Source of the DNA: Actinoplanes cyaneus
GTDB lineage: Bacteria; Actinomycetota; Actinomycetes; Mycobacteriales; Micromonosporaceae
DNA length: 64,000 nt
Assembly: GCF_016862095.1 (NCBI RefSeq)
Contig: NZ_BOMH01000025.1
Coordinates: forward strand, 1-64,000
Direction of reading: 5' to 3'
The notes beneath the pieces are model-generated. The model ran no database searches. It had not been told where the DNA came from and was given only the letters and a program-made list of their open reading frames with translations. Shown here in pieces: positions 11,332 to 33,986 of the stretch. Position 1 is the first letter of the stretch; each line of letters begins with the position of its first letter. The position numbers and the translations under genes were made by a program.

Positions 11332-12312
11332 GTGCGATCATGCGGCGTGCTGACTCAATGGGCGCGCTCGTTGCACCTCCGGTCGTCCGCGATCGCCGCG
11401 GCAGGCGGTTCCGTGGTCGTGGCCGAGCGCCACCGGCGCTTGGTCGCCTTGCGGGCCCACGACGGCGGGCAGCGCTGGGATCGGCAGGTCGAGGACTGCT
11501 GGGGCACCCTGGTCCTCGCCGGTGACCGGTGCCTCTACCTGAGCCAGTCGGGCGTGCTGCACTGTTTCGCGCTCGGCTCCGGGGAACCGTTGTGGGCGCG
11601 TCCCGGTCTGCCGCTCCGGCGGCACGTCAGCGTCTGCGGCGACGTCATCTTCGTGGGTGGCTGGCGTGGTTATCACCCGCTGGTCCGGTTCTCCCTGTCC
11701 GACGGGGAGCCGCTGCCGTTCGCCGGAGTGCCGCTGGGCCCGCTCGCCGCGCCCATGCCGCTGCTGTCAGGCGCGGTGCTCCTCGCCGGCGCCGACCGGC
11801 CGGCGCTCGTGCTGCTGGCGGCCTCCGGGACCTTGCTGGACGAGTGGCCGCTCCCCGAACCGATCGCTTTCGCCGATGGCGGCCCCGGTTTCAGCGCGGG
11901 CGACGATGGGTCGGTCACCTTTCTCAGCGGGCGGCGCATAGTCATGGCGTTGCGCGACGGCGACGGTCCACGGGTCCTCTGGCGGCACGACCGTGATCTC
12001 GTCCCGCGGGCACCCATGTTCGACGCACGGACGTTGTGGCTGGTGGACGACGCGGGCATCGCGGTCGTCGACACCGTCCGGGGTGCCGTCACGACGATCG
12101 ATCACCGGCGGAACGGCCCGGTCTGCGCCGCCACTCGCACGTCCGGCACCGCGTTGTTCGGCTTCGCGGACGGCTCGGTGATCGCCGTGGATCGTGCTGG
12201 GGAGACCAGGCCGCTGATCAGGATGCGGGCGATGATCGACCGGCTTCTGCCCGGCGCACACGGCCTGGTGCACGTCTCCGCGAAGGGCCGACTCGTCACG
12301 TTCCGCCCCTGA
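11332..12312 (+). CDS. PQQ-like beta-propeller protein
   Basis: A 326-residue protein built of repeated beta blades (for example VVVAERHRRLVALRAHDGGQRWDRQ, shown here only by its ends: VVVAERHRR and GGQRWDR). The pattern of a strand, 'D/SG--LW' turn and next strand is that of PQQ/WD40-like propellers. About six to seven blades can be counted. There is no signal peptide, so it is likely cytosolic, and no catalytic motif. The start is uncertain: GTG 11332 or GTG 11347, neither with a strong ribosome site. It is divergent from rpiB with only 28 bases between start codons, so the promoters must overlap. Function unknown. Confidence 0.72.
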   Translation: MRSCGVLTQWARSLHLRSSAIAAAGGSVVVAERHRRLVALRAHDGGQRWDRQVEDCWGTLVLAGDRCLYLSQSGVLHCFALGSGEPLWARPGLPLRRHVSVCGDVIFVGGWRGYHPLVRFSLSDGEPLPFAGVPLGPLAAPMPLLSGAVLLAGADRPALVLLAASGTLLDEWPLPEPIAFADGGPGFSAGDDGSVTFLSGRRIVMALRDGDGPRVLWRHDRDLVPRAPMFDARTLWLVDDAGIAVVDTVRGAVTTIDHRRNGPVCAATRTSGTALFGFADGSVIAVDRAGETRPLIRMRAMIDRLLPGAHGLVHVSAKGRLVTFRP

Positions 12313-30902: not shown

Positions 30903-31994
30903 TCACCGGCGATTCCCGGCCGGCTCCGCCGAGAGGTGCTTGATCAGCGCCGCGACCGCGTCCCGCCCCGCGCGGTTCGCGCCGACCGTCGACTGGGACG
31001 GACCGAAACCGATCAGATGCACCCGTGGCTCATCGGCGACCTGGGTGCCCGCCATCCGGATGCCGCCGGACTCGTTCCGCAGGTGCAGCGGGTCCAGGTG
31101 GGCGAGCGCCGCCTTGAAGCCGGTCGCCCACAGGATCACGTCGACCGGGGTGAACGAGCCGTCCGCCTCGCGCACCCCGTCCGGCTCGATCCTGGTGAAC
31201 ATCGGCCGGCGCTCCAGCGCGCCGCGCTCCTTGGCCGCGATCGCGTAGGGGGTCCACGCCAGACCGGTGTAGGAGACGACGCTGCCGGTCGGCCGGCCCG
31301 CCTCGACATCCGCGACGACCTTGGCGATCGTCTCGCGCCCGGCCACCTCCGGCTCGAACCCGTCGGTGCGGAAGAACGGCTCGCGCCGCGTGTACCAGAA
31401 CGTCGTGGCGACCCGGGAGATCTCCTCGAGCAGTTGCACCGCGGAGATCCCGCCGCCGACGACGGCCACGCGCCGGCCCGCGAACTCCGACGCCGACACG
31501 TAGTCGCGCGTGTGCACCTGCCGCCCCGCGAACGTCTCCTGCCCGGGATAGTGCGGCAGCACCGGGTTCGTCCACGTGCCGGTCGCGTTGATCACCGCCT
31601 GCGTGAGCCACTCCCCCGCGTCCGATTCAACGACGAGATCAGGACCCGCTTCCCGTACGGCGTGAACCGTCACCGGCCGCAGGATCGGCAGCCCCGCCGA
31701 GCGCTCGAAGCCGGCGAAGTAGCGCGGCACCGCCGTCCGGCTGGGCTCCTCGGGGTCGATCGCGGGTTTCGGGAACCGCGGCAGGTCGAAGATCCCGTTG
31801 ACGGTCGCCATCCGCAGCGACTCCCACCGATGACGCCACGCGCCGCCGGCGGCCGGGGCCGCGTCGAGGACCACGAACGTACGCGCGGAATCCTGGTTCT
31901 GGGTGGCGTCGGCGAAGCCGCGGCGCTTGAGGTGGTAGGCGGCGGAGAGCCCGGCCTGGCCGCCGCCGATCACCACCACCGACGCGCGGCGCAT
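30903..31994 (-). CDS. FAD/NAD(P)-dependent flavoprotein monooxygenase (Baeyer-Villiger/FMO-like)
   Basis: A 363-residue flavoprotein with two dinucleotide folds: VVVIGGGQAGLSAAYHL (FAD, about 6-22) and VAVVGGGISAVQLLEEI (NADPH, about 168-184). The ATG motif near the C-terminus (VILWATGFKAAL) is typical of flavin monooxygenases and putative flavoprotein CzcO-like oxidoreductases. It is shorter than true Baeyer-Villiger enzymes. It likely hydroxylates or oxidises a small molecule. ATG 31994 overlaps the stop of the MarR gene by one base (TGATG), so the two form a coupled operon and the regulator probably senses the enzyme's substrate. Confidence 0.9.
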   Translation of the reverse strand: MRRASVVVIGGGQAGLSAAYHLKRRGFADATQNQDSARTFVVLDAAPAAGGAWRHRWESLRMATVNGIFDLPRFPKPAIDPEEPSRTAVPRYFAGFERSAGLPILRPVTVHAVREAGPDLVVESDAGEWLTQAVINATGTWTNPVLPHYPGQETFAGRQVHTRDYVSASEFAGRRVAVVGGGISAVQLLEEISRVATTFWYTRREPFFRTDGFEPEVAGRETIAKVVADVEAGRPTGSVVSYTGLAWTPYAIAAKERGALERRPMFTRIEPDGVREADGSFTPVDVILWATGFKAALAHLDPLHLRNESGGIRMAGTQVADEPRVHLIGFGPSQSTVGANRAGRDAVAALIKHLSAEPAGNRR

Positions 31995-32455
31995 CAGGCC
32001 CGCCCGAGGTGTTCGCGCAGCGCGGCGGCGATCTCCCCGGCGGCGGCGAGCTGTGCGGGTGTCAGCGCGTCCACGAACAGCTCCCGCACGGCCCGCAGGT
32101 GCGGGACGGTCGCCGCGCGGAAGGCGTCGTTCCCCTCGGGGGTGAGCACGACCTCGGCGCCGCGGCTGTCGGTGGCGCACTCCTCGCGCCGGATCAGCCC
32201 GCGCCGCTCCATCCGCCCGAGGTGGTGCGAGAGGCGGCTGCGCTCCCAGCCGATGCGCACCGCGAGATCGGAGGAGCGCAGGCGGCCGCCGTCGGCCTCG
32301 CTGAGGGCGAGCAGCACCGTGTAGTCGCCGGTGGAGAGGCCGGTGTCGCCCTGCAAGCGCCCGGCGAGGCTGCCGCGCAGCGCCTCGGTCGTCTCGACGA
32401 AGTCGCGCCAGACCCGCAGCTCGTCACGTGTGGGCAGCTTCCGTGTCCCGGCCAT
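31994..32455 (-). CDS. MarR-family transcriptional regulator
   Basis: A 153-residue winged-helix repressor. The MarR core runs TGDYTVLLALSEADGG, then the recognition region RIGWERSRLSHHLGRMERRG and the wing CATDSRGAEVVLTPEG. MarR dimers bind palindromes and release them on binding phenolic or other small ligands. GGGAGG lies upstream of ATG 32455; two overlapping palindromes at 32470-32491 just upstream are strong candidates for autoregulation. It is the first gene of a two-gene operon with the flavoprotein. A longer frame to 32566 lacks a ribosome site. Confidence 0.92.
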   Translation of the reverse strand: MAGTRKLPTRDELRVWRDFVETTEALRGSLAGRLQGDTGLSTGDYTVLLALSEADGGRLRSSDLAVRIGWERSRLSHHLGRMERRGLIRREECATDSRGAEVVLTPEGNDAFRAATVPHLRAVRELFVDALTPAQLAAAGEIAAALREHLGRA

Positions 32456-32562: not shown

Positions 32563-33756
32563 TCACCCCGTACGGGAAGAGGTCTGTGCCGCGGGGAAAG
32601 CGGCCCGGCTGCCGAGCAGGACGACGGCCAGGCCGCAGGCGGCCAGAGCCGCGCCGGCGGCCGGGACGGCACTCACCCCGGCGTGATCAAGAACGGTCGC
32701 GCCGAACAGCGCGCCACCGCCGATGCCCATGTTGAACGCCGACGTGGTCAGCCCGGACGCCGCGTCGGGCGCCTCGGGCGCCACCCGCAACGCCGCCGCC
32801 TGCAGGAACACCGGCATCGTGCCGAACGCCAGCCCGCACGCCGCCAGGGCGAGCACGGCCGGCACCGCACCGCTCGCAACGGCCGCCAGGGCGAGCGCGG
32901 CGATCAGGCCACCGGTCGCGATCAGCATCGACGCCCGCGGCCGGCGGTCGGCGAGGACCCCGCCGAGGAAGATCCCGGCGCCGTTGGTCACGCCGTAGAC
33001 CAGCAGCGACGGCCCGATCGCGCCCTCCGGGACCCCGGCGTCGCGCAGGAACGTGGCGACGTAGGTGTAGAACCCGTAGAACCCGAGGCAGAGCACGACG
33101 GTCGCGGCGACGACCGTCGTCGCGCCGGGCGCGCGCACCACCCGGGCGAGACCGGCCGAGACCCCGGCGGGCGTGCCCGGCAACGCCGGCAGCAGCCACC
33201 GCACGGCCACCGCCAGCAGCGCGAACAGGCCGGCGAGCAGCCCGAACGCGGGCCGCCAGCCGACCAGCTCGCCCAGCGACGTGCCGGCCGGAACACCCGC
33301 CACGAACGCGATCGTGCCACCACCGAAGACGAACGTGGCCGCGCGACCGGTGCTGCCCGGCGGAACGAGGCGCACCGCGTAGCCGACCGCGATCGCCCAG
33401 AACAGCCCGTGCATGACCCCGCCGGCGATCCGCGCGGCCAGCGCCACCGCGAAGTCACCCGCCAGCGCGCTGATCGCGGCGCTCACCGCGTAGCCGCAGA
33501 GGGCCGCGACGAGCAGCGGGCGGCGCGCGAACCGGGCGGTCCAGGCGCCCAGCGGCGCCGCGAGAAGAGCGACCATCAGCGCGTACGCCGTGACGAGCAG
33601 ACCCGCCCGGGACACCGGCACGTCGAGACTGTCGCTGATCGCCGGCAGCAGCCCGGTCGGCAGCATCTCGTAGGTGACCGACAGGAACGCCGCCCCGGTC
33701 AGCGTGAGGAGCCCGGTGAGCGACCGGCCCCGGGTCACGGTGGTGGAACGCGTCAT
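32563..33756 (-). CDS. MFS exporter (DHA1-like) under a riboswitch-like leader
   Basis: A 397-residue transporter with about 12 membrane helices and signatures of the arabinose-efflux/multidrug DHA1 group: loop WTARFARRPLLVAAL between helices 2 and 3, and GGVMHGLFWAIAVGYAVRL in helix 5 region. It exports a small hydrophilic or amphipathic compound with proton antiport; the substrate is unknown. Start ATG 33756 has GGGAGG at 33762-33767. That ribosome site is buried in an 8-bp hairpin and faces a competing pseudoknot in the leader (see 33757-33846), so translation is probably ligand controlled. The gene stands apart from the MarR operon downstream. Confidence 0.9.
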   Translation of the reverse strand: MTRSTTVTRGRSLTGLLTLTGAAFLSVTYEMLPTGLLPAISDSLDVPVSRAGLLVTAYALMVALLAAPLGAWTARFARRPLLVAALCGYAVSAAISALAGDFAVALAARIAGGVMHGLFWAIAVGYAVRLVPPGSTGRAATFVFGGGTIAFVAGVPAGTSLGELVGWRPAFGLLAGLFALLAVAVRWLLPALPGTPAGVSAGLARVVRAPGATTVVAATVVLCLGFYGFYTYVATFLRDAGVPEGAIGPSLLVYGVTNGAGIFLGGVLADRRPRASMLIATGGLIAALALAAVASGAVPAVLALAACGLAFGTMPVFLQAAALRVAPEAPDAASGLTTSAFNMGIGGGALFGATVLDHAGVSAVPAAGAALAACGLAVVLLGSRAAFPAAQTSSRTG

Positions 33757-33846
33757 CTGCGCCTCCCTGGTCAGGAGGCGCCCTTCGGTCGGAGAAACCG
33801 GCTGAGCGTGGCGGACCCCGTCCGTCGCAGCGCCTCTCAACCGGCC
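33757..33846 (-). promoter_or_regulatory. SAH-riboswitch-like leader RNA controlling an MFS exporter
   Basis: On the minus strand CCGGTTGAG (33844-33836) pairs with CTCAGCCGG (33806-33798) as P1. The conserved-looking CGCTGCGAC follows, then CGGAC (33824-33820) pairs with GTCCG (33816-33812) as P2. AGGCGC (33835-33830) pairs with GCGCCT (33781-33776) as a pseudoknot. The same GCGCCTCC (33781-33774) also pairs perfectly with GGAGGCGC (33766-33759), which includes the ribosome site. The two pairings are mutually exclusive. The order P1, GCGCUGCGAC, P2, GCCA, P1', pseudoknot is that of SAH riboswitches, which turn genes on with ligand. The class call is by eye, not by covariance search. Confidence 0.75.
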
Positions 33847-33986
33847 ACCCCGACCGTAGGCGGCGACACGGCCGGCCCGCAACTCGATGCGCCCGTCACT
33901 CCCCCGCCGGATCCGGTCACCCGAACGACTTACGCTCAGTCGGGTCGTCGACAGTCCCGGATCCGGGATGCCCGAACAATGCGCGG

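Follow-up and report, generated by a model that had tools for sequence, protein, structure and literature searches.

The question raised by this locus is whether an MFS exporter gene of the soil bacterium Actinoplanes cyaneus is controlled by an SAH riboswitch and, if so, what such a switch would do there. In the window (the whole stretch of 64,000 nucleotides that we analysed), we found that an SAH-riboswitch-type leader occupies positions 33846-33757 of the minus strand, immediately 5' of the exporter gene (32563-33756, minus strand; 397 aa, DHA1-like), and this confirms the original observation of an SAH-riboswitch-like leader. From sequence comparison we consider it very probable that this leader belongs to an actinobacterial branch of the SAH riboswitches and works as a translational ON switch before a new target. 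The class is already known; the exporter would be a new kind of target, as far as a limited literature search can tell.

All elements of the leader region are on the minus strand. A candidate –35 element (TTGCGG, 33877-33882; a single consensus-like match) is separated by an 18-nt spacer from a candidate –10 element (TACGGT, of the form TANNNT, 33853-33858) that stands at a fixed distance to P1 across the family. Placed from this candidate –10, the RNA would start near 33846. The aptamer is a full model match from 33774 to 33846. Its P1 5' strand CCGGUUGAG (33836-33844) and P1 3' strand CUCAGCCGG (33798-33806) pair as 33844-33836 with 33806-33798 to give 9 bp, one of them G-U. The pseudoknot 5' strand AGGCGC (33830-33835) is followed by a conserved UGC at 33829-33827 and by the P2 hairpin CGGAC-GGG-GUCCG (33812-33824), in which 33824-33820 pair with 33816-33812 over 5 bp. 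The pseudoknot 3' strand GCGCCU (33776-33781) completes 6/6 pairs with the 5' strand. P1, P2 and the pseudoknot are visible in the letters and are backed by the covariation described below. The leader thus has the structure of the SAH class, with P1 and P2 flanking a conserved core and a pseudoknot that joins the P1-P2 junction to a strand lying 3' of P1. The same 3' strand also begins an alternative hairpin, GCGCCUCC-UGACCAG-GGAGGCGC (33759-33781), which hides the ribosome site and also covaries in the family: as the original prediction had claimed, GCGCCUCC (33781-33774) is the perfect complement of the ribosome site GGAGGCGC (33766-33759), the Shine-Dalgarno region, after which comes the ATG at 33756. 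P1, P2, the pseudoknot and the ribosome site all lie where that prediction had placed them.

A search with the Rfam SAH riboswitch model had been proposed as a check, and it bore the prediction out in part. RF01057 matched the window leader with 31.9 bits across all 78 positions (E 2.2e-4, 301 bases searched), a full-length match under the gathering score of 37 bits, and across the whole window no Rfam family reached its gathering score. The window leader is therefore outside Rfam's curated list, and the case for homology rests on R2, a covariance model whose 28 training leaders all precede ahcY or metH in other genomes; it contains zero MFS or adenosine deaminase (add) leaders and zero home-genome sequences. 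RF01057 had found 22 of these 28 leaders and the model R1 the other 6; since R1 contains the window leader (which scores 75.1 bits with it by construction), R2 is independent in its sequences and not wholly so in their discovery. When we searched the 10.36-Mb home genome with R2, four sites stood out: ahcY (79.5 bits), adenosine deaminase (72.1), the MFS leader (71.9; genome-wide E 1.4e-12) and metH (60.4). The fifth-ranked site scored 22.7 bits, leaving a 38-bit gap below the fourth, and the second-best match within the window scored 13.2 bits. RF01057 had the same four sites on top, with ahcY at 39.5 bits (above its cut-off), adenosine deaminase at 34.3, MFS at 31.9 and metH at 28.1. The ahcY and adenosine deaminase proteins of the home genome score above their NCBIfam cut-offs, and the metH frame, truncated at the end of its locus, aligns with methionine synthase along 494 residues and scores 782 bits, where the cut-off for the whole protein is 1497. 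Across the genus, RF01057 gave 150 matches at E 0.05, 49 of which pass its cut-off and 148 of which are backed by R1. Two RF01057 matches in sister genomes (L194, 30.0 bits; L195, 28.2 bits) appear coding or repeat-like by eye and have neither an R1 match nor a core-pattern match. Because such false-looking matches fall in nearly the same score range as the window leader, RF01057 alone is not decisive; we rejected it as proof by itself and do not rely on it. These scores suggest that the Rfam model under-calls the actinobacterial branch.

The original prediction had staked itself on covariation of P1, P2 and the pseudoknot in related leaders, and this covariation is present. We supplied 94 sources to a model of P1 and P2, with the pseudoknot absent from it, and 92 matched; the two unmatched were L194 and L195. 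In the resulting alignment of 92 actinobacterial leaders, 94.3% of cells are paired compared to 28-45% when the partner strand is slid, and there are two-sided changes at 11/20 pairs (shuffled mean 6.0). In the pseudoknot, 99.8% of cells are paired and two-sided changes occur at 2/6 pairs, where A-U becomes G-C in 2 leaders and C-G becomes U-A in 4. A first, structure-free alignment of 32 leaders had given 93.9% paired cells and 9 pairs with two-sided changes. Since related sequences inflate covariation counts, we weigh the pair changes themselves above the numbers.

The window leader and RF01057 have in common the order P1, core, P2, pseudoknot, and the core letters GCGCUGC, CCA and GCUC are as in the Rfam consensus. 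The two differ in that the window leader scores under the gathering score, precedes an exporter and has C where the consensus has G30 and G where it has C46. Its pseudoknot reads AGGCGC/GCGCCU where the Rfam consensus has GAGCGC/GCGCUC, letters that we take to pair as the pseudoknot. We mapped the equivalents of G15, C16, A29, G30 and C46 by the sequence and numbering of 3NPQ together with the Rfam consensus, and presume this mapping to hold. G15, C16 and A29 are described as ligand contacts in the known SAH aptamer (PMC7057144); their equivalents are conserved in 92/92, 92/92 and 91/92 leaders, and the window leader has all three. Consensus G30 is replaced by C in 91/92 leaders and consensus C46 by G in 91/91, ahcY leaders included (columns 87 and 128 of alignment A3). 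C46 is described as adjoining the homocysteine tail of SAH (PMC7057144), and the C and G at these equivalents may be a tertiary pair that has been swapped beside the ligand. Since the home ahcY leader clears the RF01057 cut-off with neither G30 nor C46, we do not count these two positions as class-defining. This branch-wide change, together with an exporter being an odd target for SAH, could be taken to mean that the aptamer before the pump reads some other adenosine-like ligand (SAM, adenosine, 5'-deoxyadenosine or a nucleoside antibiotic) while its sister leaders read SAH. We regard this as very unlikely, because the same change is found in leaders for which SAH makes sense as the ligand, those of ahcY and metH, including the home ahcY leader that scores above the RF01057 cut-off, and because, stems, loops and linkers aside, the core of the window leader is identical to that of the home ahcY leader except at column 21, which varies freely between A and G. 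The suggestion of a variant aptamer for a different ligand, made in the original prediction, is thus unsupported.

How would an SAH aptamer act on the exporter gene? An intrinsic terminator was rejected since no T run follows the hairpin. The sequence shows an aptamer that is homologous to ahcY and metH leaders and lies close behind a promoter-like –10, with a pseudoknot 3' strand that is able to pair with the ribosome site instead; translational ON control is the reading that we prefer. The pseudoknot and the ribosome-site hairpin are mutually exclusive in the window leader, as had been predicted, and we found that other leaders of the family share this layout and carry compensating changes in the hairpin. 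Of 206 distinct leaders, 188 carry, within the 45 bases that follow the pseudoknot 3' strand, a stretch of 5 or more bases perfectly complementary to it, as against 36% for shuffled sequence; the other 18 have no perfect 5-base complement. This count is partly trivial because any CCUCC fits any Shine-Dalgarno sequence. More informative are hairpin letters that change together (CCUUCC with GGAAGG in 9 leaders, CCCCC with GGGGG in 2) and the closing pair beside CCUCC/GGAGG, which is formed in 149/160 leaders (79/88 distinct loops), where 2000 permutations averaged 78 and reached 100 at most. There are also letters that are out of step, CCUUCC opposite GGGAGG in 4 leaders and CCUCC opposite GGGGG in 12; these need G-U pairs or reflect another match of the pattern used. 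The ribosome-site hairpin has an energy of –17.6 kcal/mol as compared to –10.0 kcal/mol for the isolated pseudoknot helix. With the hairpin so much stronger, either the switch works kinetically or the gene stays mostly off, and we would expect kinetic, co-transcriptional control with a tight OFF state. TANNNT starts 18-22 bases 5' of the P1 GAG at 171 occurrences in 205 leaders; with TACGGT at 33858 at this family-fixed spacing, the aptamer probably opens the mRNA. Wang et al. (2008) speak of gene activation by SAH riboswitches in their title, and in the proposed reading the window leader would likewise be activating.

The nearest solved relative of the MFS protein by sequence is the sugar efflux transporter SotB (6kki, E 4.5e-41). 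The best family models for the MFS protein are SotB (PRK03545) at 216.9 bits, with a cut-off of 401, and Cmx/CmrA at 175.9 bits, with a cut-off of 400, so that the substrate of SotB is not transferable to it. The NepI model gave 73.5 bits, under its NCBIfam cut-off of 584, and we rejected NepI or an adenosine exporter as the identity of the pump on these family scores. Downstream of the MFS gene, on the same minus strand, are a MarR-family regulator (31994-32455, with its start placed by inference) and an ArsO-like flavin monooxygenase (30903-31985; 305 bits, cut-off 425), the latter a candidate member of the same mRNA. In A. liguriensis (L039, which has runs of N), a MarR gene and the start of a monooxygenase also lie downstream of the MFS gene. 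In A. palleronii, the 1.5 kb past the MFS gene hold same-strand ORFs, none of which is MarR- or monooxygenase-like by eye. Elsewhere in the window (11943-12040, plus strand), ARAGORN calls a 98-base tRNA-Gln(ctg), which is unusually long for this tRNA.

We found the leader at all 3 close MFS orthologues that were found, those of the home genome, A. liguriensis (84% identity) and A. palleronii (70%). With 30 of 32 homologue matches fetched, the 27 at 52% identity or less, each with at least 1467 bases upstream, are without the leader (best score 16.2 bits, at chance level, in L041). The 9 further MFS loci from a scan of named genomes are also without it, and a search of a plasmid collection for relatives of the MFS protein at E 1e-60 gave zero matches. 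A leader-pump pair in only 3 species, a very stable ribosome-site hairpin and a relic-like case elsewhere (L245, described below) would all fit a real SAH aptamer that is a passive passenger, copied along with its promoter and leaving the pump unregulated. So would the leader of A. liguriensis, in which one P1 pair is U-U. Against such a passenger, the aptamer, the pseudoknot and the ribosome-site hairpin are all kept in A. palleronii despite only 70% protein identity, and, U-U aside, the stem differences among the three MFS-orthologue leaders available for comparison retain pairing through G-U and A-U exchanges; we give it a correspondingly slight probability, on a par with that of another ligand. 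Chance folding of GC-rich sequence, with a ribosome-site hairpin and no riboswitch, has next to no probability, for while the genome is GC-rich and RF01057 has two false-looking matches of 28-30 bits in sister genomes, chance does not account for the 38-bit gap with R2, the covariation over 92 leaders or the leader at all 3 close orthologues.

To see which other genes stand behind this leader, we surveyed the genus and its relatives. In Actinoplanes, leaders are present in 67/67 genomes (148 R1 matches); 142 matches were fetched, and the 135 distinct leaders among them precede ahcY (59), metH (58), adenosine deaminase (12), MFS (3) and HAD-type phosphatase (3) genes. The phosphatase loci are L100, L103 and L106, in three genomes, and in L100 the first residues of the phosphatase resemble the deaminase start, as if the leader and first codons had been re-used. 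At E 0.001, R1 has matches in 156/300 genomes of the family and in 74/394 of a class sample. The 59 loci outside the genus comprise metH (39), ahcY (9), genes for MOSC-domain proteins (6), add (3), a methyltransferase gene (1) and L245, which is unclear. In 20 further stretches, we found metH (9, including L274), ahcY (5; L273 and L275-L278), MOSC (2; L269 and L270), add (1; L271) and a methyltransferase gene (1; L268), as well as a partial match without a clear downstream gene (L272); L285 was left out of the count. Both non-genus samples were taken best-first or picked by hand, so their proportions mean little. The MOSC-domain proteins (Pfam; L250, L258, L263, L264, L265, L267, L269 and L270, in other genera of the family) begin about 25 bases or less from the leader and have no obvious link to SAH. 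Class I methyltransferase genes (Pfam) lie directly 3' of leaders at L218 (653-1480, minus strand) and L268 (240-1046, plus strand). At L245 (1501-1850), the leader is followed by a short, stop-ended ORF, beyond which lies another MFS gene; this is perhaps a relic, and by eye the short ORF is perhaps what remains of a methyltransferase-like gene. L245, from another genus, had at first looked like a further, independent case of an MFS target, and we rejected it because of this ORF between leader and MFS gene.

The adenosine deaminase genes bear on what the regulon does. Each of the 67 Actinoplanes genomes has an adenosine deaminase gene without a leader (68 such genes at E 1e-60), and 12 genomes have a second copy. 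The leader is present at 12/12 second copies as compared to 0/68 other deaminase genes. The second copies share 82-100% identity with the home-genome copy that bears the leader, and they begin 16-65 bases past the leader (L002, 1494-1571 on the minus strand, and 11 further loci in the genus). Adenosine is the product that holds SAH hydrolase back. With the leader at all of the extra add paralogues, the regulon is linked to what SAH hydrolysis produces, and the dedicated add copy gives it a step that removes adenosine. An exporter fits the same logic, and we therefore rank export of a nucleoside or of SAH first among the possible roles of the pump, although the family scores do not show it.

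SAH riboswitches have been noted in Mycobacteriaceae (PMC3766115). The window leader is likewise actinobacterial, and R1 also finds metH leaders in a family of the same taxonomic order that we take to be Mycobacteriaceae (f2; L283 and L284). These differ from the window leader in their pseudoknot (AGGCGU/ACGCCU), in the partner of the ribosome site (CUUCC/GGAAG) and in their target, which is metH and not a pump. One review describes the SAH class as exclusively associated with SAH-recycling genes (PMC9971707). For Proteobacteria, the targets named in PMC4239095 are ahcY and metF and, in some lineages, metH, methyltransferases (COG1189, COG1385) and a membrane protein (PF04020), which already makes 'exclusively' a loose term. 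The original prediction held that an exporter would be new as a target of SAH riboswitches; a limited literature search turned up neither an exporter nor an adenosine deaminase under such control, a weak negative that agrees with this view.

Taken together, these comparisons support the original interpretation, as far as sequence can. When SAH is scarce, GCGCCUCC would pair with GGAGGCGC and the start would be closed. When SAH rises, the pseudoknot would be stabilised during transcription, the ribosome site would be freed and the MFS exporter would be made, co-induced with AhcY, MetH and the dedicated adenosine deaminase. The pump may then help the SAH-hydrolase reaction to drain, with a purine nucleoside or SAH itself as the most likely cargo; this role of the pump is the weakest step. 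Against this explanation we count the score under the RF01057 cut-off, the C46 and G30 changes, a hairpin far stronger than the pseudoknot helix, the out-of-step hairpin letters, the MFS association in three species, the U-U in P1 of A. liguriensis, the protein family scores far under their cut-offs, and A. palleronii, where the pump is present and the leader-bearing add copy is absent.

It is also conceivable, and on balance doubtful, that the pump serves as a self-defence exporter and responds to damage and not to the drug: an adenosine analogue that blocks SAH hydrolase, as neplanocin A does, would raise SAH, the riboswitch would open, and the analogue or excess nucleoside would be pumped out. 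We know of no precedent for a riboswitch that triggers efflux through a metabolite piling up when the target enzyme is blocked. According to an abstract, neplanocin A was isolated from Ampullariella regularis, and Ampullariella resolves to Actinoplanes in a taxonomy lookup.

In the preferred reading, that of a translational SAH switch, the leader would give an otherwise anonymous DHA1 pump SAH as its defined effector and would turn the substrate of that pump into a testable question. SAH is a toxic by-product of methylation, and our findings suggest that the cell may switch a pump on when it builds up. If a regulon with a dedicated adenosine deaminase and an exporter is real, cells would also remove or expel products as SAH accumulates.
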